Source: Apostichopus japonicus | Lineage: Eukaryota > Echinodermata > Holothuroidea > Aspidochirotida > Stichopodidae | Assembly: GCF_037975245.1 (NCBI RefSeq) | Contig: NC_092571.1 | Coordinates: 17,913,917 to 17,977,916 of the forward strand | Direction of reading: 5' to 3' | DNA length: 64,000 nucleotides | Shown here: positions 4,579 through 52,300 of the stretch, in pieces | Layout: every line of letters starts with the position of its first letter | Numbering within the stretch: position 1 is the stretch's first letter | Notes under the pieces: model-generated | Seen by the model: only the letters and a program-made list of their open reading frames with translations | Told to the model about the DNA's origin: nothing | Database searches by the model: none | Translations under genes and position numbers: made by a program

Positions 4579-4584
4579 TTTATT
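4579..4584 (-). terminator. Candidate polyadenylation signal of the repeat-peptide gene
   Basis: AATAAA on the minus strand, about 360 nt downstream of the proposed stop codon at 4950-4948. It is a plausible 3' end signal, but the match is short and other tttatt sites lie nearby. Confidence 0.35.
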
Positions 4585-4947: not shown

Positions 4948-4971
4948 CTATCTCCAACCAGCTTCCTTTTC
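4948..4971 (-). CDS. Terminal exon of the peptide precursor, decayed repeat unit
   Basis: After an acceptor (cattaacag) the frame reads EKEAGWR and then TAG. The DNA beyond the stop still resembles a type A unit: the same frame continues IFFDGKREAD and then another stop. This end of the gene therefore appears to be a repeat unit that became a terminal exon by point mutation. Confidence 0.5.
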   Translation of the reverse strand, partial: EKEAGWR

Positions 4972-7900
4972 CTGTTAATGAATACATGATAACAAAAAAA
5001 AATTTCATATTAACTAATCCATTAATAAAGCAAAGCACATAAAGAAATACAACATTCTTATTTTAATTATGTTAGTTTTGGGGGAATTTTGAAACAGTAT
5101 CTAGCAGACCTGCATCACTGCTATCATATTGCTGGGCAATGGTTTTGTCTTTCAAAAGAAAATAAGGGAAGAAACTTAAAAGTATTTTGCGCAGTTGCAT
5201 GTAGAAATTATATTTGGTTAAACCTTGATTAGCTATGAGCTCGTCACTTAATTTAAAAACAAATTCAAGTCCTTGTATTAATTTGTAAACTGTTACAAAG
5301 AACAAGTGCTACGTCAAGATACATTATTGTCAAACACCATAGGTTTGTTATGGTTTGTTTCAAATAAAATTTGGTACCTTTAAGTTAATCAAAATTATTC
5401 AAACTGCAAGTGTTAGATTATGTTGACTCAGCGAATACATTTCAAAATACGACTAATTGTGATGACAGTGTTAGACAGGATAAAGTATATCTAGAAAGAA
5501 TAGCTATCAAAACTTTAGCTTAAATTTTGGTGCTTGAAACAATTAGCTTAATAATTTCTTTTAAGCAGTTTTATCTTTATTACAACAGATAAGTCATCAA
5601 GACCTTCATCAGCTCCATCGAAAATAATCATTTCCCAACCGTTCTCATGCAGCATCTCAGCACCATGTGCTTTCTTCTAATGTAATGGAACGAGAAATGG
5701 GGGGGGGGGGGGGATCTGATTATTTTCAATACCTAAGTATCGCTGTAATATAAATAATTTCATTAATATACCACAAAAACCTGAAAAGATGAAGTGAGAG
5801 ATTTATTAAGTTTGGTCTAATGATATGACACATTCAAAAATAATATTTTAACGGAACGGTACAAAATTGAAGTGAGTGACAGGATTACTATACACTGCAG
5901 ACAGAAGCCATTGCATTAAAACACATTGTTGATTGAGAGACCGAGTTGGAAAAGTTATTCTCAATATTATGACCAAAGCAAGAGTATATGATTCACGTAA
6001 AAACGAACAAATGCATCGAATAAGCCATCGGAAAGCCACAAAACATAGGAACACACACACACAAAAAACGACAAGTAATAATAACCAATCCCTTTCATCA
6101 TTTAACTCGTGCAGTCTTAATAACCGTTACCTCAAGGTCTTCATCTGCTTCTCGTTTGCCTCCAAAGATGATCTTTTTCCAACCTTTCTTATTCAAGTCC
6201 TCGGCTTCGTTCTCCTGGTCAGAAAGATACAAGTGGTTACTTTTGTTGAAATAAATTGGTATTAGAATTGAAGCAGTTAAAAAGTTATATTACTTTCTCC
6301 CTTTCACAGTCTTACAAGTCAGGACATTTTTCGAAATTTAATGGGGTTACACAAATTGCAACACAGCGGTACAGGTTAGCATTCAAACATAGACAGGAAT
6401 TACACCATAGGTGTCAGCTCTTAAAACAATTTAAGAAGCAATGTCCAGAATAATATACAGTGATTATATTTCACGACATAATCAGAAATGATTGTTAACA
6501 GTAAGTAGATTAAATAAAGACAAAACATGTTTACTGAATATTTTAGATTTTTCATGAATAAATAGATTCACGTGAAGTTATTGTATGTTAAACATAAAGG
6601 ACCATACCTCTAGGCCTCGCTTTCCTCCCCATAGGATCTTTCTCCAGCCCTTTTCGTCCAAGTCCTCAGTTTCTCTCTCCTTGTACGTAAAATAGAAAGA
6701 AAACGTCATAGTTGCCTTACTTTTGTAATAATCTCCCAAAACAAATTACTATATGCAACATTGCCCAGTGATCATAACAAACCAACTGCTCTTTATGTGA
6801 ACAGGGTCCCGTGGTATTTTGGTGCCATACAACTTTGAAAGTAATTTCGGACTTGAAATGAAAGCGAATACACCTCTGCATGGGCAGCATTTGGCATGTT
6901 TCATGTAGTTACACTTCGTATAAATACCTCAGTATATTTTCTAAATGAACTTATCATTTACATATGACATTTGTAATAATCATTACCTCAAGGTCTTCAT
7001 CTGCTTCTCGCTTTCCTCCGAAGATGATCTTTTTCCAGCCTTTCTCATTCAAGTCCTCGGCTTCGTTCTCCTGGTCAGAAAGATACAATTGGTTTGCTTT
7101 CGTTGATATTAATTGGTATATAGATTTGACGCAGTTAACGGTTATTTACTTTCTCCCTTTCACATTCTTACAAGTCAGGACATTTCTCGATATTTAATGT
7201 GGTTACACAGTTTGTAACACAGTGGTACAGTGTATCATTAAAACATAGACAGAATTTACAATATATATGTGTCAGCTCCTGAAACAGATTAAGAAGCAAT
7301 GTCCAGAATAATATACAGTGATTATATTTCACGACATCATTAAAATGATTGTTAACAGTATCGGATTAGATTAAGTAAGCCAAACATGTTTGATAAACAT
7401 TTCAGATTATTCATGAATAAATAGATTCACGTGAAGTTATTGTATGTTTAAACATAAAGGACCATACCTCTAGGCCTCGCTTTCCTCCGAAAATCTTTTT
7501 CCACCAGCCCTTTTTGTCCAAATCCTCAGATTCCCTCTCCTTGTACGTGAAATACAAAGAAAACGTCATAGTTGCAGTACCCTTGTAATAATTTTCCAAT
7601 ATTTATACAAAATATAGCAAGTGATAATGCCAAACCCCTTCCTTTCTGTATACAGGGTCCCGTGGAATTTTGGTGCCATACAATTTTGAAAGTAGTTTAA
7701 GAATTAAAATGAAAGCAACTATACCTCTGCATGGGCAGCATTTGACATGATTCATGTAGTTACACTTTATATAAATACTGTATCTCCGTTTATTTACTAA
7801 ATTTGATTATCATCTAACTCTAACAGTCGTAATAACCATTTCCTCAAGATCTTTATCTGCTTTTCGCTTTCCTCCAAAAATGATCTTTTTCCAACCTTTC

Positions 7901-10900
7901 TCATTCAAGTCCTTAATTGGCTTCGTTCTCCTGGTCAGAAAGATACAATTGGTTACTTTTGTTGAAATAAACTGGTATTAGAATTGAAGCAGTTAAACAG
8001 TTATATTACTTTCTCCCTTTCACAGTCTAAAAAGTCAAGACATTTTTTGAAATTTAATGGGGTTACACAAATTGCAACACAGCGGTACAGGTTAGCATTC
8101 AAACATAGACAGGAATTACACCATGGTGTAAGCTCTTAAAACAATTTAAGAAGCAATGTCCAGAATAATATACAGTGATTGTATTTCACGACATAATCAG
8201 AAATGATTGTTAACAGTAAGTAGATTAAATAAAGACAAAACATGTTTGCTGAATATTTTAGATTTTTCATCAATAAATAGATTCACGTGAAGTTATTGTG
8301 TGTTAAACATAAAGGACCATACCTCTAGGCCTCGCTTTCCTCCGAAAATCTTTTTCCACCAGCCCTTTTTGTCCAAATCCTCAAATTCCCTCTCCTTGTA
8401 CGTGAAATACAAAGAAAACGTCATAGTTGCAGTACCCTTGTAATAATTTTCCAATATTTATACAAAATATAGCAAGTGATAATGCCAAACCCCTTCCTTT
8501 CTGTATACAGGGTCCCGTGGAATTTTGGTGCCATACAATTTTGAAAGGTAGTTTAAGACTTAAAATGAAAGCAAATACACCTCACAATTTTGAAAGTAGT
8601 TTAAGACTTAAAATGAAAGCAAATACACCTCTGTATGGGCAGCATTTGGCAAGATTCATGTAGTTACACTTTATATAAATACTGTACCTCCGTTTATGTT
8701 TACTAAATTTGATTATCATTCTATCTCTAACAGTCGTAATAACTATTACCTCAAGGTCTTCATCTGCTTCTCGTTTTCCTCCGAAAATGATCTTTTTCCA
8801 GCCTTTCTCATTCAAGTCTTCGGCTTCGTTCTCCTGGTCGGAAAGATACAATTGTTACATTTGTTGAAATTAATTGATATTAGAATTTAAGCAGTGAAAC
8901 AGTAATCTTATTTTCTCCCTTTCACATTCTTACAAGTCAGGAAATTTCTCCATATTTAATGGGATTACACAGTTTGGCACACAGTGGTCCAACCCAGTGA
9001 TGCATTCAAACATAGACAGAAATTACAACATTGGTGTCAGCTCTTAAAACAATTTAAGAAGCAATGTCCAGGATAATATACAGTGACTACATCTCACGAC
9101 ATCATCAGAAATGATTGTTAACAGTAAGAAGATTTCATAAAGACAAACCATGATTGATTAACATTTCAGATTGTTCATGAATAAATAGATTCACGTGAAT
9201 TTATTGTATGTTAAACATAAAGGACCATACCTCTAGGCCTCGTTTTCCTCCCCATAGGATCTTTCTCCAGCCCTTTTCGTCCAAGTCCTCAGTTTCTCTC
9301 TCCTTGTACGTAAAATAGAAAGAAAACGTCATAGTTGCCTTACTTTTGTAATAATCTCCCAAAACAAATTACTATATGCAACATTGCCCAGTGATCATAA
9401 CAAACCAACTGCTCTTTATGTGAACAGGGTCCCGTGGTATTTTGGTGCCATACAACTTTGAAAGTAATTTCGGACTTGAAATGAAAGCGAATACACCTCT
9501 GCATGGGCAGCATTTGGCATGTTTCATGTAGTTACACTTCGTATAAATACCTCAGTATATTTTCTAAATGAACTTATCATTTACATATGACATTTGTAAT
9601 AATCATTACCTCAAGGTCTTCATCTGCTTCTCGCTTTCCTCCGAAGATGATCTTTTTCCAGCCTTTCTCATTCAAGTCCTCGGCTTCGTTCTCCTGGTCA
9701 GAAAGATACAATTGGTTTGCTTTCGTTGATATTAATTGGTATATAGATTTGACGCAGTTAACGGTTATATACTTTCTCCCTTTCACATTCTTACAAGTCA
9801 GGACATTTCTCGATATTTAATGTGGTTACACAGTTTGTAACACAGTGGTACAGTGTATCATTGAAACATAGACAGAATTTACAATATATATGTGTCAGCT
9901 CCTGAAACAGATTAAGAAGCAATGTCCAGAATAATATACAGTGATTATATTTCACGACATCATCAAAATGATTGTTAACAGTATATGATTAGATTAAGTA
10001 AGCCAAACATGTTTGATGAACATTTCAGATTATTCATGAATAAATAGATTCACGTAAAGTTATTGTATGTTTAAACATAAAGGACCATACCTCTAGGCCT
10101 CGCTTTCCTCCGAAAATCTTTTTCCACCAGCCCTTTTTGTCCAAATCCTCAGATTCACTCTCCTTGTACGTGAAATACAAAGAAAACGTCATAGTTGCAG
10201 TACCCTTGTAATAATTTTGCATTATTTATACAAAATATACCAAGTGATAATGCCAAACCCCTTTCTTCTGTATACAGGGTCCCGTGGAATTTTGGTGCCA
10301 TACAATTTTGAAAGTAGTTTAAGAATTAAAATGAAAACTACACCTCTGCATGGGCAGCATTTGACATGATTCATGTAGTTACACTTTATATAAATACTGT
10401 ATCTCCGTTTATTTACTAAATTTGATTATCATCTAACTCTAACAGTCGTAATAACCATTTCCTCAAGATCTTTATCTGCTTTTCGCTTTCCTCCAAAAAT
10501 GATCTTTTTCCAACCTTTCTCATTCAAGTCCTTAATTGGCTTCGTTCTCTTGGTCAGAAAGATACAATTGGTTACTTTTGTTGAAATAAACTGGTATTAG
10601 AATTGAAGCAGTTAAACAGTTATATTACTTTCTCCCTTTCACAGTCTAAAAAGTCAAGACATTTTCCGAAATTTAATGGGGTTACACAAATTGCAACACA
10701 GCGGTACAGGTTAGCATTCAAACATAGACAGGAATTACACCATGGTGTAAGCTCTTAAAACAATTTAAGAAGCAAATGTCCAGAATAATATACAGTGATT
10801 GTATTTCACGACATAATCAGAAATGATTGTTAACAGTAAGTAGATTAAATAAAGACAAAACATGTTTGCTGAATATTTTAGATTTTTCATCCATAAATAG

Positions 10901-13900
10901 ATTCACGTGAAGTTATTGTGTGTTAAACATAAAGGACCATACCTCTAGGCCTCGCTTTCCTCCGAAAATCTTTTTCCACCAGCCCTTTTTGTCCAAATCC
11001 TCAGATTCCCTCTCCTTGTACGTGAAATACAAAGAAAACGTCATAGTTGCAGTACCCTTGTAATAATTTTGCAATATTTATACAAACTATAGCAAGTGAT
11101 AATGCCAAACCCTTTCCTTTCTGTATACAGGGTCCCGTGGAATTTTGGTGCCATACAATTTTGAAAGTAGTTTAAGACTTAAAATGAAAGCAAATACACC
11201 TCACAATTTTGAAAGTAGTTTAAGACTTAAAATGAAAGCAAATACACTTCTGTATGGGCAGCATTTGGCAAGATTCATGTAGTTACACTTTATATAAATA
11301 CTGTACCTCCGTTTATGTTTACTAAATTTGATTATCATTCTATCTCTAACAGTCGTAATAACTATTACCTCAAGGTCTTCATCTGCTTCTCGTTTTCCTC
11401 CGAAAATGATCTTTTTCCAGCCTTTCTCATTCAAGTCTTCGGCTTCGTTCTCCTGGTCGGAAAGATACAATTGTTACATTTGTTGAAATTAATTGATATT
11501 AGAATTTAAGCAGTGAAACAGTAATCTTATTTTCTCCCTTTCACATTCTTACAAGTCAAGAAATTTCTCCATATTTAATGGGATTACACAGTTTGGCACA
11601 CAGTGATCCAACCCAGTGATGCATTCAAACATAGACAGAAATTACAACATTGGTGTCAGCTCTTAAAACAATTTAAGAAGCAATGTCCAGGATAATATAC
11701 AATGACTATATTTCACGACATCATCAGAAATGATTGTTAACAGTAAGAAGATTTCATAAAGACAAACCATGATTGATTAACATTTCAGATTGTTCATGAA
11801 TAAATAGATTCACGTGAAGTTATTGTATGTTAAACATAAAGGACCATACCTCTAGGCCTCGCTTTCCTCCCCATAGGATCTTTCTCCAGCCCTTTTCGTC
11901 CAAGTCCTCAGTTTCTCTCTCCTTGTACGTAAAATAGAAAGAAAACGTCATAGTTGCCTTACTTTTGTAATAATCTCCCAAAACAAATTACTATATGCAA
12001 CATTGCCCAGTGATCATAACAAACCAACTGCTCTTTATGTGAACAGGGTCCCGTGGTATTTTGGTGCCATACAACTTTGAAAGTAATTTCGGACTTGAAA
12101 TGAAAGCGAATACACCTCTGCATGGGCAGCATTTGGCATGTTTCATGTAGTTACACTTCGTATAAATACCTCAGTATATTTTCTAAATGAACTTATCATT
12201 TACATATGACATTTGTAATAATCATTACCTCAAGGTCTTCATCTGCTTCTCGCTTTCCTCCGAAGATGATCTTTTTCCAGCCTTTCTCATTCAAGTCCTC
12301 GGCTTCGTTCTCCTGGTCAGAAAGATACAATTGGTTTGCTTTCGTTGATATTAATTGGTATATAGATTTGACGCAGTTAACGGTTATATACTTTCTCCCT
12401 TTCACATTCTTACAAGTCAGGACATTTCTCGATATTTAATGTGGTTACACAGTTTGTAACACAGTGGTACAGTGTATCATTAAAACATAGACAGAATTTA
12501 CAATATATATGTGTCAGCTCCTGAAACAGATTAAGAAGCAATGTCCAGAATAATATACAGTGATTATATATCACGACATCATCAAAATGATTGTTAACAG
12601 TATATGATTAGATTAAGTAAGCCAAACATGTTTGATGAACATTTCAGATTATTTATGAATAAATAGATTCACGTGAAGTTATTGTATGTTTAAACATAAA
12701 GGACCATATCTCTAGGCCTCGCTTTCCTCCGAAAATAATCTTTTTCCAGCCTTTTTCGTCCAAGTCCTCAGTTTCTCTTTCCTTGTACGTGAAATACAAA
12801 GAAAACGTTATAGTTTCCTTACCCTTGTAATAATTTTCCAATATTAATACACAATACATAGACAATTGATAATACCAAACCATTTCCTTTGTATATACAG
12901 GGTCCCGTTGTAATTTGGTGCCATACAACTTTGAAAGTAATTTAAGAATTAAAATGAAGCGAATACACCTCTGCATGGGCAGTATTTGCCATGATTCATA
13001 TAATAACACTTCACTAAATTATTCACTAAATTAACATATCATCTATCTCAAACAGTCGTAATAACCGTTACCCCAAGGTCTTCATCTGCTTCTCGTTTTC
13101 CTCCGAAGATGATCTTTTTCCAGCCTTTCTCATTCAAGTCCTCGGCTTCGTTCTCCTTGTCGGAAAGATACAATTGTTACATTTCTTGAAATTAATTGGT
13201 ATTAGAATTTAAGCAGTTATCTTATTTTCTCCCTTTCACATTCTTACAAGTCAAGGAATTTCTCCATATTTAATGGGATTACACAGTTGGCGCACAGTGG
13301 TCCAACCCAGTGATGCATTCAAACATGGACAGAAATTACAACATAGGTGTCAGCTCTTAAAACAATTTAAGAAGCAATGTCCAGAATAATATACAGTGAC
13401 TATATTTCACGACATCATCAGAAATGATTGTTAACAGTAAGAAGATTTAATAAAGACAAAACATGATTGATGAACATTTCAGATTATTCATGAATAAATA
13501 GGTTCACGTGAAGTTATTGTATGTTAAACATAAAGGACCATACCTCTAGGCCTCGCTTTCCTCCGAAAATTATCTTTCTCCAGCCCTTTTCGTCCAAGTC
13601 CTCAGTTTCTTTCTCCTGATAAGTACGAAGGAAAACGCCATAGTTACCTGACGTTTGTAATATGTTACCAGTATAATATGTATATATGTATGAATAAACC
13701 TCCCGGTTTTTGGTTACTAACACAACTCACACAAAGCATAGTCGAACTTTAGCCATATACTATTTTAAATAGTGTTTAATCATAGACTGAAAATGTAAAC
13801 ACTATACACGACTGTTCTTATGACTTCCACCGAACCTAAACACTCTTTAGGTATGAATTGACGAAGGTCATACATCCACAGCGACTCGGCATGATCCACA

Positions 13901-15013
13901 CCACGTGTTTCATGCACAATATTTTCTTTAGCCGTAGACCTAATGTTAGTGTAGTAATTATGCCGTAGTCCAAAAACAGAACAAAATTTGTTGTTCCATG
14001 TTTCAATCGCTCTTTTTTGGCATTGACTGTTGTAGGATCCCAATTGTACCAAAGCAATAGGTCACAAAATATGAATTATGTCAAAACGAGTTAGAAGAGT
14101 CACACGGCAAAACATCATAAGTTGAACCCATTTATATTAAGGCACTGTGCAACCAAAGCCTACATGCGATTGATGACTATGAATATCAACACGCTACGTG
14201 ATATCAGTATGGTGACGTTAGCTACCGGAGATATAGCTTATGATGCTATCACGTTTAGTGTGACACTTATGTAATATACAATGACCTAGGAAGAAAATGT
14301 AGTCGGATTACTGCTATTCCGGCTCGATTCGAACGATACACCAATACTAGCATTCTTCGATAGGGGTAGGCTAATCAATATTTTACGAATGACTCTAGGT
14401 TCTTAGATTTATTCGCAATGGGTTTTTTCGACTACAAAACTTAAAAACAATTAAATAATGTGATAATGACACACTTATCTGACAATGTCAATGTTCAATC
14501 ATAAATATATAATCATAAATAATTCGTAAGAATAGGGTATATAATATTATAATAGCAGCATGAAAAGTCTATATTTCCACGAAATATGTAAAAATTGTGT
14601 TATTCAATCCCCCAATTCGATAAAAAGCCGAAATAAAATGTCGATATTTCAAGATAAAAGCTTGCAATTTCTATATAAACATCTTTACAACTTTCGACAT
14701 AAAACGGTAACATTTCGACATATATGGTCAATATTCCGAGATTTCATAAATGTCGATAATTTGCGATGAAACAGTTGCATCTTAAAGGCAAAAAGGCAAA
14801 ACCTCGATCTATAAAACTTTCGAATCGAAAATTGAAGAAAAAATCAAAATAAGTAGGAATGCCAACATTAGGAGAAATACAGTTTTGCCCCACCCCGCCA
14901 CATTTCTTGATGGCTCTAAGCCACTGGTGATGATAAGGCAAACTTACCAAGCTGGCGGCAAAAACAGCCAAGAATGCACTGAAGCACAACAGGATCAAGA
15001 ATGATAACTTCAT
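4948..15013 (-). CDS. Secreted multi-peptide precursor built from tandem micro-exons (unrecognised)
   Basis: Exon 1 (15013-14948) encodes a signal peptide (MKLSFLILLCF..., 22 residues) ending in phase 0. It is followed on the minus strand by small exons between AG and GT, all in phase 0 with lengths divisible by 3. Type B (72 nt): 13615-13544, 12781-12710, 11921-11850, 11014-10943, 10162-10091, 9302-9231, 8394-8323, 7539-7468, 6679-6608. Type A (84 nt): 13155-13072, 12312-12229, 11452-11369, 9693-9610, 8833-8750, 7070-6987, 6214-6131. Each encodes an acidic spacer (ERETEDLDE or ENEAEDLNE), Lys, a nine-residue core (GWKKIIFGG, GWRKILWGG, GWWKKIFGG or GWRKIIFGG), then Lys-Arg. Type A ends in a second acidic run, EADEDLE. 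A divergent exon (5676-5584) and a short terminal exon with a stop (4971-4948) close the frame. The layout predicts proteolytic release of many short cationic peptides, perhaps C-terminally amidated. Neuropeptide or antimicrobial role is inference; I recognise no family. Confidence 0.75.
5584..5676 (-). CDS. Divergent repeat-unit exon without basic cleavage sites
   Basis: A 93-nt phase-0 open segment between AG (ttacattag) and GT (GTAATA). It aligns with the type A unit: ENGWEMIIFDGADEGLDDL keeps the Gly-Trp, Ile-Ile-Phe and Gly positions and the acidic tail. It has lost the Lys residues in the core and the Lys-Arg site, so it should not release a cationic peptide. It may be a C-terminal spacer domain or a decaying unit. 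Confidence 0.5.
7843..7930 (-). pseudogene. Broken type A exon (frameshift, lost donor)
   Basis: The unit is 88 nt instead of 84. Four extra bases follow the codons for ENEA and bring a stop into frame. The donor is GAGGAAATG rather than GAGGTAATG, so the GT is missing. The Gly-Trp core is still recognisable. Because every unit is phase 0 and a multiple of 3, skipping this one leaves the precursor in frame. Confidence 0.75.
10462..10549 (-). pseudogene. Broken type A exon (frameshift, both splice sites lost)
   Basis: It is the duplicated partner of the broken exon at 7843-7930 and has the same 4-nt insertion and the same missing donor. In addition its acceptor reads ctgaccaa where other copies have ctgaccag. 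The unit was therefore already broken before the 2.62-kb duplication and has decayed further since. Confidence 0.75.
12710..12781 (-). pseudogene. Type B peptide exon with mutated splice donor
   Basis: The frame is intact and encodes DEKGWKKIIFGGKRGLE, but the donor is GAG|ATATGG where the other copies have GAG|GTATGG, a single G-to-A change at the first intron base. The exon is probably skipped, or a cryptic donor is used. The coding sequence itself shows no decay, so the change is likely recent. Confidence 0.6.
14948..15013 (-). CDS. Signal-peptide exon of the peptide precursor
   Basis: The ATG at 15013 opens a 22-codon exon: MKLS, then a hydrophobic core rich in Leu and Phe, then AVFAAS with a likely signal-peptidase site after Ala-Ala-Ser. 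It ends at a consensus donor (TTG|GTAAGT) in phase 0, which matches every downstream micro-exon. No other exon between here and 13615 is needed to keep the frame. Confidence 0.75.
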
Positions 15014-15102: not shown

Positions 15103-15110
15103 CTTATAAA
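15103..15110 (-). promoter_or_regulatory. Candidate TATA box of the peptide gene
   Basis: On the minus strand the sequence is TTTATAAG, about 90 nt upstream of the ATG at 15013. That would place a start site near 15075 with a short 5' UTR. It is a short motif judged only by position. Confidence 0.4.
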
Positions 15111-29338: not shown

Positions 29339-40856
<11,518 letters not shown>

Positions 40857-49300: not shown

Positions 49301-52300
49301 TTCTCTACACCAAGGAAGAGTTAATTCTCTCGACGGTGACAGGGAGGAATGGATTTGAGGCTCTGGATAATGTCAAGCTTATGGCAATCAGAGGTAAAGT
49401 TTTATTAAGAATCTGTGAGTATGTATCTTCGATCGGTCATCTCATTCTCTCCGTCATGTTGTATCTCAACGAGCGTCATAGGTACCAAATCTGGTCCGAG
49501 GGCAACCTACCGGCCTATCCTATCCTAGTTTAGTAATAGTTTGACTTGGATTCTGCCAATCGGTGTTTTTCTCTGGGGGCTCATAGAAAATTTATGGGGA
49601 AGCCCTAGGTCGCTGAGACAACATGATACCTTCTTTGTAGTAAATGTACTGTACCTGTGTCTCCTTTAACACTTTTACTTCAAACCATGCCAAAACAAGA
49701 TTTCTTCCAAATTCTACTGTACTGTTGAGGACTGAGATTCATAGGGCACCTAGTTGTCATGTTATTTGCAGGGCACCATTTTCATATATGGAGAATAAAT
49801 ATCATCTTAATTAAAATATGATGAGAGACCTGGTGCCACTCTTACAATTAAGCTTTTTTTGAAGATGCCGGGAATTTTGGTTGCAGTTTGCAAACAGACA
49901 TTTCCCATTTTGTACTTATTTTTTAATCTTTGTTTGTTGGTGTCAGTTCTGCTTCCTTTAACTTGCGATGTCTGGGACCACATTTTATGGATATAAGCCA
50001 AATCTGAGAATTTAGAGCTACCTGTCCAGAGGCCTCATACTATAGCATTAATTTGTTTGCTTGGTCTCGACATTCCTTTGAAGAAAACTCTGTCATAACC
50101 TCTAGTGAATGTCAGAAATCACACCCTCTGTATTTGTAAATTAAAGCTACTTGCATACTAAAGCAAGTTATTAACAGAAAACTGGGACACAAACAAAAGG
50201 GAGAGTTTGACTTGTAATTTGGGCTTGTCTTATGCATGCCCTAGAATTTATCACATGGAAATGTGTGGGGAATGCTCGATATCACACTGCAGTTAAGTAT
50301 TGTAGTGTCTTCTAAACATTATCCAAAGCAAAATAATAAATCAAAACAGATCACTTCCAACTTTGGGGTTGAAGCGCAGACTATTATACTTGCAAGGACC
50401 ATGGTTGTAGATCCTGTTTGAGCCCATATTTTCGTTGCTCTTTCTGATTCTAAATTTCTTGTTCAAATCGAGCTGAATTTTCCCGCTTAAACCTCTACTC
50501 TTATCTCGGGATTTATTCTACATAAATATATATAACCTGAAGGGCATTTACACTGATCCATGTTCCAAATTAGAACAACAGAAAGGTTGACAAAGGAGAA
50601 TAATTATTTTGCCTCTGGTGTTAGCCACAGAATCGTCCAAAGTTTTTCAAGCATGATTAGTTTTACATTCCTTGATGATGGTTGGTTGTGTAAACCTCTG
50701 AGATGATTAGAAATGATCCTGGACTTGGTTTTGGAAATCATCTGCCATGAAGATGGTATAGCATCCTCTTTTAGTGGACTTGCCGTACGATAGGCATACA
50801 GTATGTGACACCGATGACGTTCTAGAGCACTAAGCAAAGACCGGTAGCAATTTTAAAGAGGAAATCATACAGGTTGCACTTTCCACCTGGATATTCTTAC
50901 TGATGACAAATCAGTGGGAAGACTTTTCTATCGCTGGTAACTGCTGTTTCATATCTGTGTGTGTGGTTGTGGAGTCATTCGGTTTTGGGAACAACCTTGG
51001 AGAGGGGTAGGGATCTAACTTTCTGTTTATCACTCTCTGGCTCTTTGTTACTAGTTTTCTTAAATGTGTTTTATCCATGTAACATTGTTGGCAATCAGTA
51101 TAAATTGTAAGAAATCAATTATTGACTGGTTTTTCCATTTTATATTCCATTATGCTTTCATATTCTCACATATTGGCTTTCTTATATTTGTTTTGTCTTT
51201 TTTCATCAGAGGCTGTTGAGAAGAAATATGGGCATTCCGGTAGTGACTTTGAACAACTGTGGAAGCAGTGCGTGACCTCCCTAGGTCAACATTGCAAGTA
51301 TCTAAGACAAAAGAGTGGCCTGTCTCATTCACCGCAGCTGGTGGTGAGCCACGGCAGATACAGACAGGAGAGTCCCGAACAGAAACCCATCATCACGGAA
51401 GAGAAAGATCTTCAGCATATCATAGTTGCTGACCTAGAGTGAATATCATATAAACATATTGAGGTCAAGGTTGAAGATGTGTATAGTGATTTCTGAAGAA
51501 ATACAAGACATGGTATATAGACTATGACTTTAAAGTGAATTTGGCATATATTCATGTAAATCAAGGTCAAAGGTTGCTGCAATACGAAGTTATTGTTTTA
51601 AGTTCTAGAGGAATTCCAACATGTAGTAGGAGGTACAAGACATGGTATAGTCCATTACCTTCAAGTGAATTTGACATATATTCATGTAAATCAAGGTCAA
51701 AGGTTGATGCAATAGGAAGTTATCATCATTTACTAGGGAAGCGCAACATACTTTGTAGATGATGCTATGTATGATGGACATGTAAATTGAGGTCAAAGGT
51801 TGATGCAATAGGAAGATATCATTATAAGCTTGGGAAGCCCAACATACTTTGTAGGTGATGCTATGTATGATGGACATGTAAATTGAGGTCAAAAGTTGCT
51901 GCAATAGGAAGTTATCATTATAAGCTTGGGAAGCCCAACATACTTTGTAGGTGATGCTCTGTATGATGGACATGTAAATTTAGGTCAAAGGTTGCTGCAA
52001 TAAAAAGTTATCATCATAAGCTAGGGAAGTCCAACATACTTTGTTGATGATGATATGCATGATAGACATGTAAATTGAGGTCAGAGGTTGAGGCAGTTCA
52101 AAAGTATTCACTGAGGTAAGGAAAGTACATCATGCTATAGTTGCTGTACTTGGGGATGAAGACGCTCTCCCTCGATTTTACAAATACAGAAATTTCACCA
52201 CATGAAGGTTAATAAGGGAGTATTAAATCAGTGATAGAAAAAGCATTGAATTTAAAACATTAAAGATTTGAAATTGTTTCTTCATCATTTGAAAGAAACT

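Follow-up and report, generated by a model that had tools for sequence, protein, structure and literature searches.

What kind of gene is built from a long run of alternating micro-exons, and what would the peptides encoded by them do? The question is raised by an array in the genome of the sea cucumber Apostichopus japonicus, which lies on the minus strand (15013 down to 4948) of the 64,000-nucleotide stretch analysed here (C11:17913917-17977916; hereafter the window, to which coordinates refer unless another contig is named). An original prediction, made from this stretch, had described a signal-peptide exon followed by about 20 tandem exons, alternately 72 and 84 nt long and in phase 0, in the layout of a multi-copy secreted precursor. 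We find that the array is a real and constrained multi-copy peptide precursor gene, new in sequence and known in kind, with predicted expression, processing and role; it was not found in print within our searches. Genome searches covered the 671,581,487-base assembly (35 contigs), and published papers are cited for the sections, tables or passages concerned rather than as wholes.

Exon anatomy, constraint and growth of the array

The first exon encodes a hydrophobic 22-residue signal peptide, as judged by reading its sequence, and is separated by a 1.3-kb intron from 18 repeat exons that run from 13615 to 6131 in strict alternation, B then A. The nine B exons are 72 nt long and the nine A exons 84 nt, or 88 nt in two frameshifted copies; the predicted alternation behind a signal exon was thus borne out. 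Fifteen of the 18 repeat exons are open, with phase 0 on both sides and AG/GT borders, and three are broken (one B exon, B2, and two A exons, A4 and A7). The predicted count of about 20 is corrected to 18 repeats, 15 of them intact; a diverged exon and a stop exon, the latter in the same phase as the repeats, come after them. The features, in the order of transcription, are these:

15103..15108 (-): TATA-like TATAAG, putative promoter, 95 nt upstream of the ATG (pattern match)
14948..15013 (-): exon 1, signal peptide MKLSFLILLCFSAFLAVFAASL, 22 codons, phase 0, donor GTAAGT (read from the sequence)
13544..13615 (-): B1, intact repeat exon, 72 nt, core GWRKIIFGG-KR
13072..13155 (-): A1, intact repeat exon, 84 nt, core GWKKIIFGG-KR
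12710..12781 (-): B2, broken repeat exon, core GWKKIIFGG-KR, open frame, donor AT instead of GT; probably skipped in splicing
12229..12312 (-): A2, intact repeat exon, core GWKKIIFGG-KR
11850..11921 (-): B3, intact repeat exon, core GWRKILWGG-KR
11369..11452 (-): A3, intact repeat exon, core GWKKIIFGG-KR
10943..11014 (-): B4, intact repeat exon, core GWWKKIFGG-KR
10462..10549 (-): A4, decayed by a 4-nt insertion that carries a stop, GA for donor GT, acceptor AG lost
10091..10162 (-): B5, intact repeat exon, core GWWKKIFGG-KR
9610..9693 (-): A5, intact repeat exon, core GWKKIIFGG-KR
9231..9302 (-): B6, intact repeat exon, core GWRKILWGG-KR
8750..8833 (-): A6, intact repeat exon, core GWKKIIFGG-KR
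8323..8394 (-): B7, intact repeat exon, core GWWKKIFGG-KR
7843..7930 (-): A7, decayed like A4 (4-nt insertion with a stop, GA for GT), acceptor AG kept
7468..7539 (-): B8, intact repeat exon, core GWWKKIFGG-KR
6987..7070 (-): A8, intact repeat exon, core GWKKIIFGG-KR
6608..6679 (-): B9, intact repeat exon, core GWRKILWGG-KR
6131..6214 (-): A9, intact repeat exon, core GWKKIIFGG-KR after Lys-Lys
5584..5676 (-): diverged acidic 93-nt exon KKAHGAEMLHENGWEMIIFDGADEGLDDLSV, without Lys-Arg, weak donor, use uncertain (profile E 0.038)
4948..4971 (-): last coding exon, EKEAGWR-stop (TAG), a decayed A repeat; putative 3′ untranslated region beyond
4579..4584 (-): AATAAA, putative polyadenylation signal

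A profile made from the repeats themselves found the 18 exons at E <= 2.6e-11 in the six frames of the window; besides these and the diverged exon, the next best match reached only E 3.7. Scored with a splice-site consensus matrix, the donors of the 15 intact repeat exons fall in the 94th-99th percentile among the GT sites of the window and their acceptors in the 75th-99th percentile among its AG sites, while the donor of the diverged exon is weak (50th percentile). Peptide-encoding exons stand in tandem in the array, and their joining in one transcript is predicted. A second genomic place was sought with three queries, and none appeared among the matches listed: the repeat query gave at least 16 matches, all at the array locus, the signal exon a single match there, and a 737-base exon-intron piece of the array 14 matches, at this locus only. 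The 9917 bases past the left end of the window held no further repeat at E <= 1.

Likeness among the copies is to be expected of tandem duplicates and says little by itself. The way in which they differ, with an excess of synonymous change, shows that the array is constrained as coding sequence, beyond chance. Among the intact A copies (seven, four of them distinct), the proportions of synonymous (pS) and nonsynonymous (pN) differences are 0.198 and 0.015; the nine B copies (seven distinct) give 0.265 and 0.093, and the comparison of A with B over 21 codons gives 0.715 and 0.142, the copy pairs not being independent of one another. Third codon positions account for six of the eight variable sites of the A copies, for ten of the 19 of the B copies and for four of the six differences fixed between A and B, or 20 of 33 when pooled (P 0.0012, sites not independent). 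Over 36 pairs each, the A exons, including the two broken ones, diverge by 5.6% against 13.1% and 22.7% in their 250-nt flanks, and the B exons by 12.0% against 21.4% and, on the 3′ side, 10.3%. Among the rows listed of an A-B register comparison, which fully cover two of the nine A copies, the in-register likeness begins no more than 18 nt ahead of the exon, in the acceptor, and ends with the Lys-Arg codons; the remaining matches listed are intron stretches common to both flanks.

A 2.6-kb block comprising A2-B3-A3-B4-A4-B5 recurs as A5-B6-A6-B7-A7-B8 with 98.7% identity (29 mismatches over 2624 aligned positions), and the beginning of the second block is 93.3% identical to A8-B9-A9 over 980 positions. 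The block identity is that of a gapped alignment, since the ungapped self-comparison at a shift of 2619 (1872 of 2610 matches) is too low on account of indels. The dead A4 was copied along with its block, giving A7. The array grew by block duplication, in the pattern expected from unequal crossing-over among symmetric exons, and it would enlarge by the same mechanism. With phase 0 at both ends of each intact exon, gaining, losing or skipping a whole exon, or duplicating a block, would not disturb the frame, and the array illustrates how micro-exon arrays can both grow and decay while the reading frame is preserved. A 48-nt tandem doublet is found in an intron of both blocks (8535-8631 and 11155-11247) and, being present in both, is probably older than the block duplication.

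The predicted precursor and its peptides

The repeat anatomy and the coding constraint are observed, and splicing, processing, amidation and activity are what we infer. The model precursor has 448 residues, of which the 429 after residue 19 comprise 130 acidic, 91 basic and 0 Cys residues (isoelectric point 4.74), in agreement with the acidic spacers that had been described. The cores of the 15 intact repeats are GWKKIIFGG (7), GWWKKIFGG (4), GWRKILWGG (3) and GWRKIIFGG (1). Lys-Arg follows the core in all 18 repeats, and Gly-Gly-Lys-Arg is kept in every one of them while other residues vary, so that the expected glycine ahead of Lys-Arg is present throughout. An N-terminal cut is harder to account for: the Lys noted in front of the core is single (Glu-Lys) in 10 of the 15 intact repeats and part of Lys-Lys in the other 5. 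Exon anatomy, the pS and pN values and the survey of splice borders together support a multi-copy secreted precursor, a layout that we predict with high confidence.

In the processing that we propose, the signal peptide would take the precursor into the secretory pathway, where a convertase would cut after each Lys-Arg and a second cut after Lys would free the N-terminal Gly-Trp. A carboxypeptidase would remove Lys-Arg, and PAM would convert the last Gly into an amide. Each precursor would then yield seven copies of GWKKIIFG-NH2, four of GWWKKIFG-NH2, three of GWRKILWG-NH2 and one of GWRKIIFG-NH2, and the acidic spacers would neutralise the cationic cores until their release. Each predicted amidated core has a charge of +3, and the computed [M+H]+ values of the predicted octapeptide amides are 947.5825, 975.5887, 1014.5996 and 1020.5778. 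Should the cut at Glu-Lys fail to occur, the products would be longer and would carry acidic N-terminal parts.

A genome search with PF03712 gave four matches over the cut-off, on two contigs. This domain is common to PAM and dopamine-beta-hydroxylase-like enzymes, and the matches are therefore not used as proof of amidation. Amidated peptides are made by A. japonicus, as exemplified by the isolated NGIWYamide (PMC3432112 Table 1).

Defence or signalling

In the reading that we prefer, by a small margin over a neuropeptide role, the amidated octapeptides would be secreted for defence, as antimicrobial peptides. The whole statement, of a multi-copy precursor giving amidated octapeptides with a defence role, has in our estimation a little less than an even chance of being correct. 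The cores are cationic and Trp-rich, and the B core has a pN of 0.155 against 0.055 in the rest of the B exon. Compared by eye with GWFKKTF, the start of the centrocin 1 heavy chain (PMC3561256 Table 1), GWWKKIF matches at 5 of 7 positions, GWKKIIF at 4 and GWRKILW at 3. Anionic propeptides that neutralise a cationic peptide are known in centrocins and strongylocins (PMC10608444). Nor is the gene one of the A. japonicus precursors that PMC6586643 names in its section list or in the sections compared.

Several observations weigh against a defence role. Eight residues are few for a membrane-active peptide. The hydrophobic moments, computed for three of the cores, are ordinary: against permuted sequences they fall in the 58th-91st percentile for 100 degrees and in the 3rd-44th percentile for 160 degrees. 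The pS of the B core is likewise higher than that of the rest of the exon (0.365 against 0.205), so its greater variation need not be the result of selection, and the B exons are not less diverged (12.0%) than their own 3′ flanks (10.3%). Ten of the 15 intact cores follow a lone Lys, with no dibasic site. The A core is the same in all seven intact copies (pN 0.015) and 12 of the 15 cores end in IFG, both of which fit a receptor ligand. Furthermore, absence from the published catalogue may reflect only a failure of repeat assembly, which that catalogue reports for two other precursors (PMC6586643).

The same precursor and processing could instead supply neuropeptides or hormones, with the octapeptide amides acting at a G-protein-coupled receptor and the many copies providing a high dose of related ligands. 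We consider this a serious possibility that falls short of being probable. The constancy of the A core and the common IFG ending argue for it, as do a signal peptide, basic cleavage sites and multiple copies, which are the usual marks of a neuropeptide precursor (PMC3432112). Other precursors of this species have acidic spacers and a Gly for amidation (PMC6586643 section 30), and many-copy precursors exist in echinoderms (PMC5627052). On the other hand, the parts compared of PMC6586643, a catalogue of 44 A. japonicus precursors, do not name the array gene, and the catalogued precursor genes are said there to have one to five coding exons against about 16 to 21 here. The ending is LWG rather than IFG in three of the 15 cores, and core positions 3-6 vary.

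The lone Lys before most cores, together with a strongly repetitive and highly charged sequence, would also suit a precursor that is never cut and acts as a secreted repeat protein with a structural, adhesive or binding role. This is highly improbable in our view, as Gly-Gly-Lys-Arg is constant in all 18 repeats amid other variation, and the diverged exon lost Lys-Arg and the cationic core together. It is improbable, too, that the array is a relic in decay and without expression, or that its copy number is partly a product of assembly. In favour of this reading, three repeats out of 18 are broken, what remains of a decayed repeat forms the last exon, the two 2.6-kb blocks are 98.7% identical, and database searches with the precursor queries matched no transcript-derived protein, although the word and length limits of these searches could miss transcripts. 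Against decay stand the synonymous excess among intact copies, the intact signal exon and the presence of a TATA-like box and AATAAA, while the 29 sites at which the blocks differ show that they are not exact copies.

As a precursor gene, the array would represent an undescribed family of secreted peptides, for signalling or defence, in a farmed echinoderm, defined by exact masses and exon coordinates. It is also a gene of a type prone to be missed when repeats confuse transcriptome assembly, as in the trouble with two other precursors noted in PMC6586643. A bolder version, which we regard as unlikely, is that of a holothurian peptide cassette gene, in which two alternating types of symmetric micro-exon, with one peptide each, are block-duplicated, lost and re-mixed without cost to the frame; how many amidated, Trp-rich octapeptides for defence are made, and in what mixture, would then vary by individual and splice form, and their release would depend on an unusual cut between Glu-Lys and Gly-Trp.

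Known systems, database searches and other features

The closest known systems are the following. The caerulein and magainin genes of Xenopus laevis contain tandem-repeated peptide-encoding exons (PMC3731216), and likewise encode several nearly identical secreted peptides, defensive or hormone-like, by exons duplicated within a single gene; unlike these, in a comparison of gene design rather than sequence, the array alternates two exon types over 18 repeats and has predicted octamers. The sea-urchin centrocins (PMC4805251, PMC3561256) share an echinoderm origin, a cationic chain that starts with Gly-Trp and has basic residues at positions 4-5, and an anionic prosequence, but they consist of a heavy and a light chain joined by a disulphide, whereas the array precursor has 0 Cys after residue 19. 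The centrocin 1 heavy chain had no match in this genome, in a search run without a positive control. Spider cupiennin and latarcin complex precursors (PMC7889660) resemble the array in combining several short linear cationic peptides with short anionic linkers and a cut after a basic residue near Glu. Compared by description rather than by sequence, the predicted N-terminal cut at Glu-Lys is reminiscent of this spider quadruplet motif, which has Arg at -1 and Glu at one of -2 to -4 (PMC7889660); the spiders belong to another phylum, and the array precursor has Lys in place of Arg. The micro-exon genes of Schistosoma (PMC5825161) also join a signal peptide to many short symmetric exons; those exons are 6-36 bp long, in contrast to 66, 72, 84 and 93 nt and a 24-nt coding end here. 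Within the same species, the NGIWYamide and F-type SALMFamide precursors (PMC3432112, PMC6586643) are secreted, with Lys-Arg sites, amidated products and repeats, but their sequences are different and their genes have one to five coding exons.

Sequence comparison with the protein database pointed to no convincing relative. A 244-aa query gave only P0001, a translation of the signal exon that continues into the intron following it (100% over 22 residues; 2210-nt contig, source tag 'lgn'), and none of the 8000 candidates scored for the 448-aa query reached E <= 10. A 98-aa query gave P0001 and P0002; the latter, LOC121368050 isoform X2, is an uncharacterised protein from the snail Gigantopelta aegis and is 42% identical over the 98 residues of the query (E 3.2e-5). 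Like the array precursor, P0002 has a signal peptide, followed by three units of acidic-EKR-(FIDIIIGG, WLDIVIGR, LIDIIFGG)-KR, and it resembles a three-copy secreted peptide precursor; unlike the host of the array gene, its source is a mollusc. With 2000 shuffles of each kind, full shuffling never reached its score, class-preserving shuffling did so 52 times and core-only shuffling 349 times. Since shuffles that keep the layout reach this score, homology is not claimed and convergence is possible; P0002 had no match in this genome. In Pfam searches with the 244-aa precursor, baeRF_family10 (34 bits against a cut-off of 27.1) and KR (22.6, at the cut-off) were rejected, as 0 stretches passed alone for either, and seven more families were all under their cut-offs. 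We read these matches as sums of weak repeat matches.

In the literature, the core strings led to no relevant paper, one unrelated plant paper containing a string, and topical searches yielded the comparators above but not the array gene. No relevant passage was found by word search in PMC9598280 (0 hits) and PMC13228809 (4 places). PMC6586643 (44 precursors) was compared by its section list, by word finds and in section 30 and part 1 of section 47, and no precursor there matched the array; none of the twenty myoactive A. japonicus peptides in Table 1 of PMC3432112 matches the cores.

Two known peptides of this species were also found in the genome. Stichopin, so far found only in A. japonicus (PMC6586643), is encoded at two places (C7:453120-453170 and C7:17063366-17063416, with 17 of 17 and 16 of 17 residues), and these two loci might be the source of the N/K difference at one codon among reads (PMC3432112). 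GN-19 is represented with 15 of 16 aligned residues identical, out of 19. They point to A. japonicus or a very close relative as the host, in line with the echinoderm source toward which the original prediction had leaned.

Neighbouring domains in the window, as detected by Pfam search, are Fer2_3, which we read as SDHB, alkaline phosphatase, and RRM, which we read as TDP-43-like; Rfam gave 0 matches at the gathering score within the window. A reverse transcriptase with a GIY-YIG domain lies at 31465-33531 (-) and is Penelope-like by our reading, and a fragment similar to it by eye lies at 37022-37741 (+). A GATG tetranucleotide array of ~143 copies (38198-38768) adjoins an alkaline phosphatase exon (profile positions 1-49), and a 96-nt minisatellite of 4.3 copies with 90% matches is found at 51683-52095.

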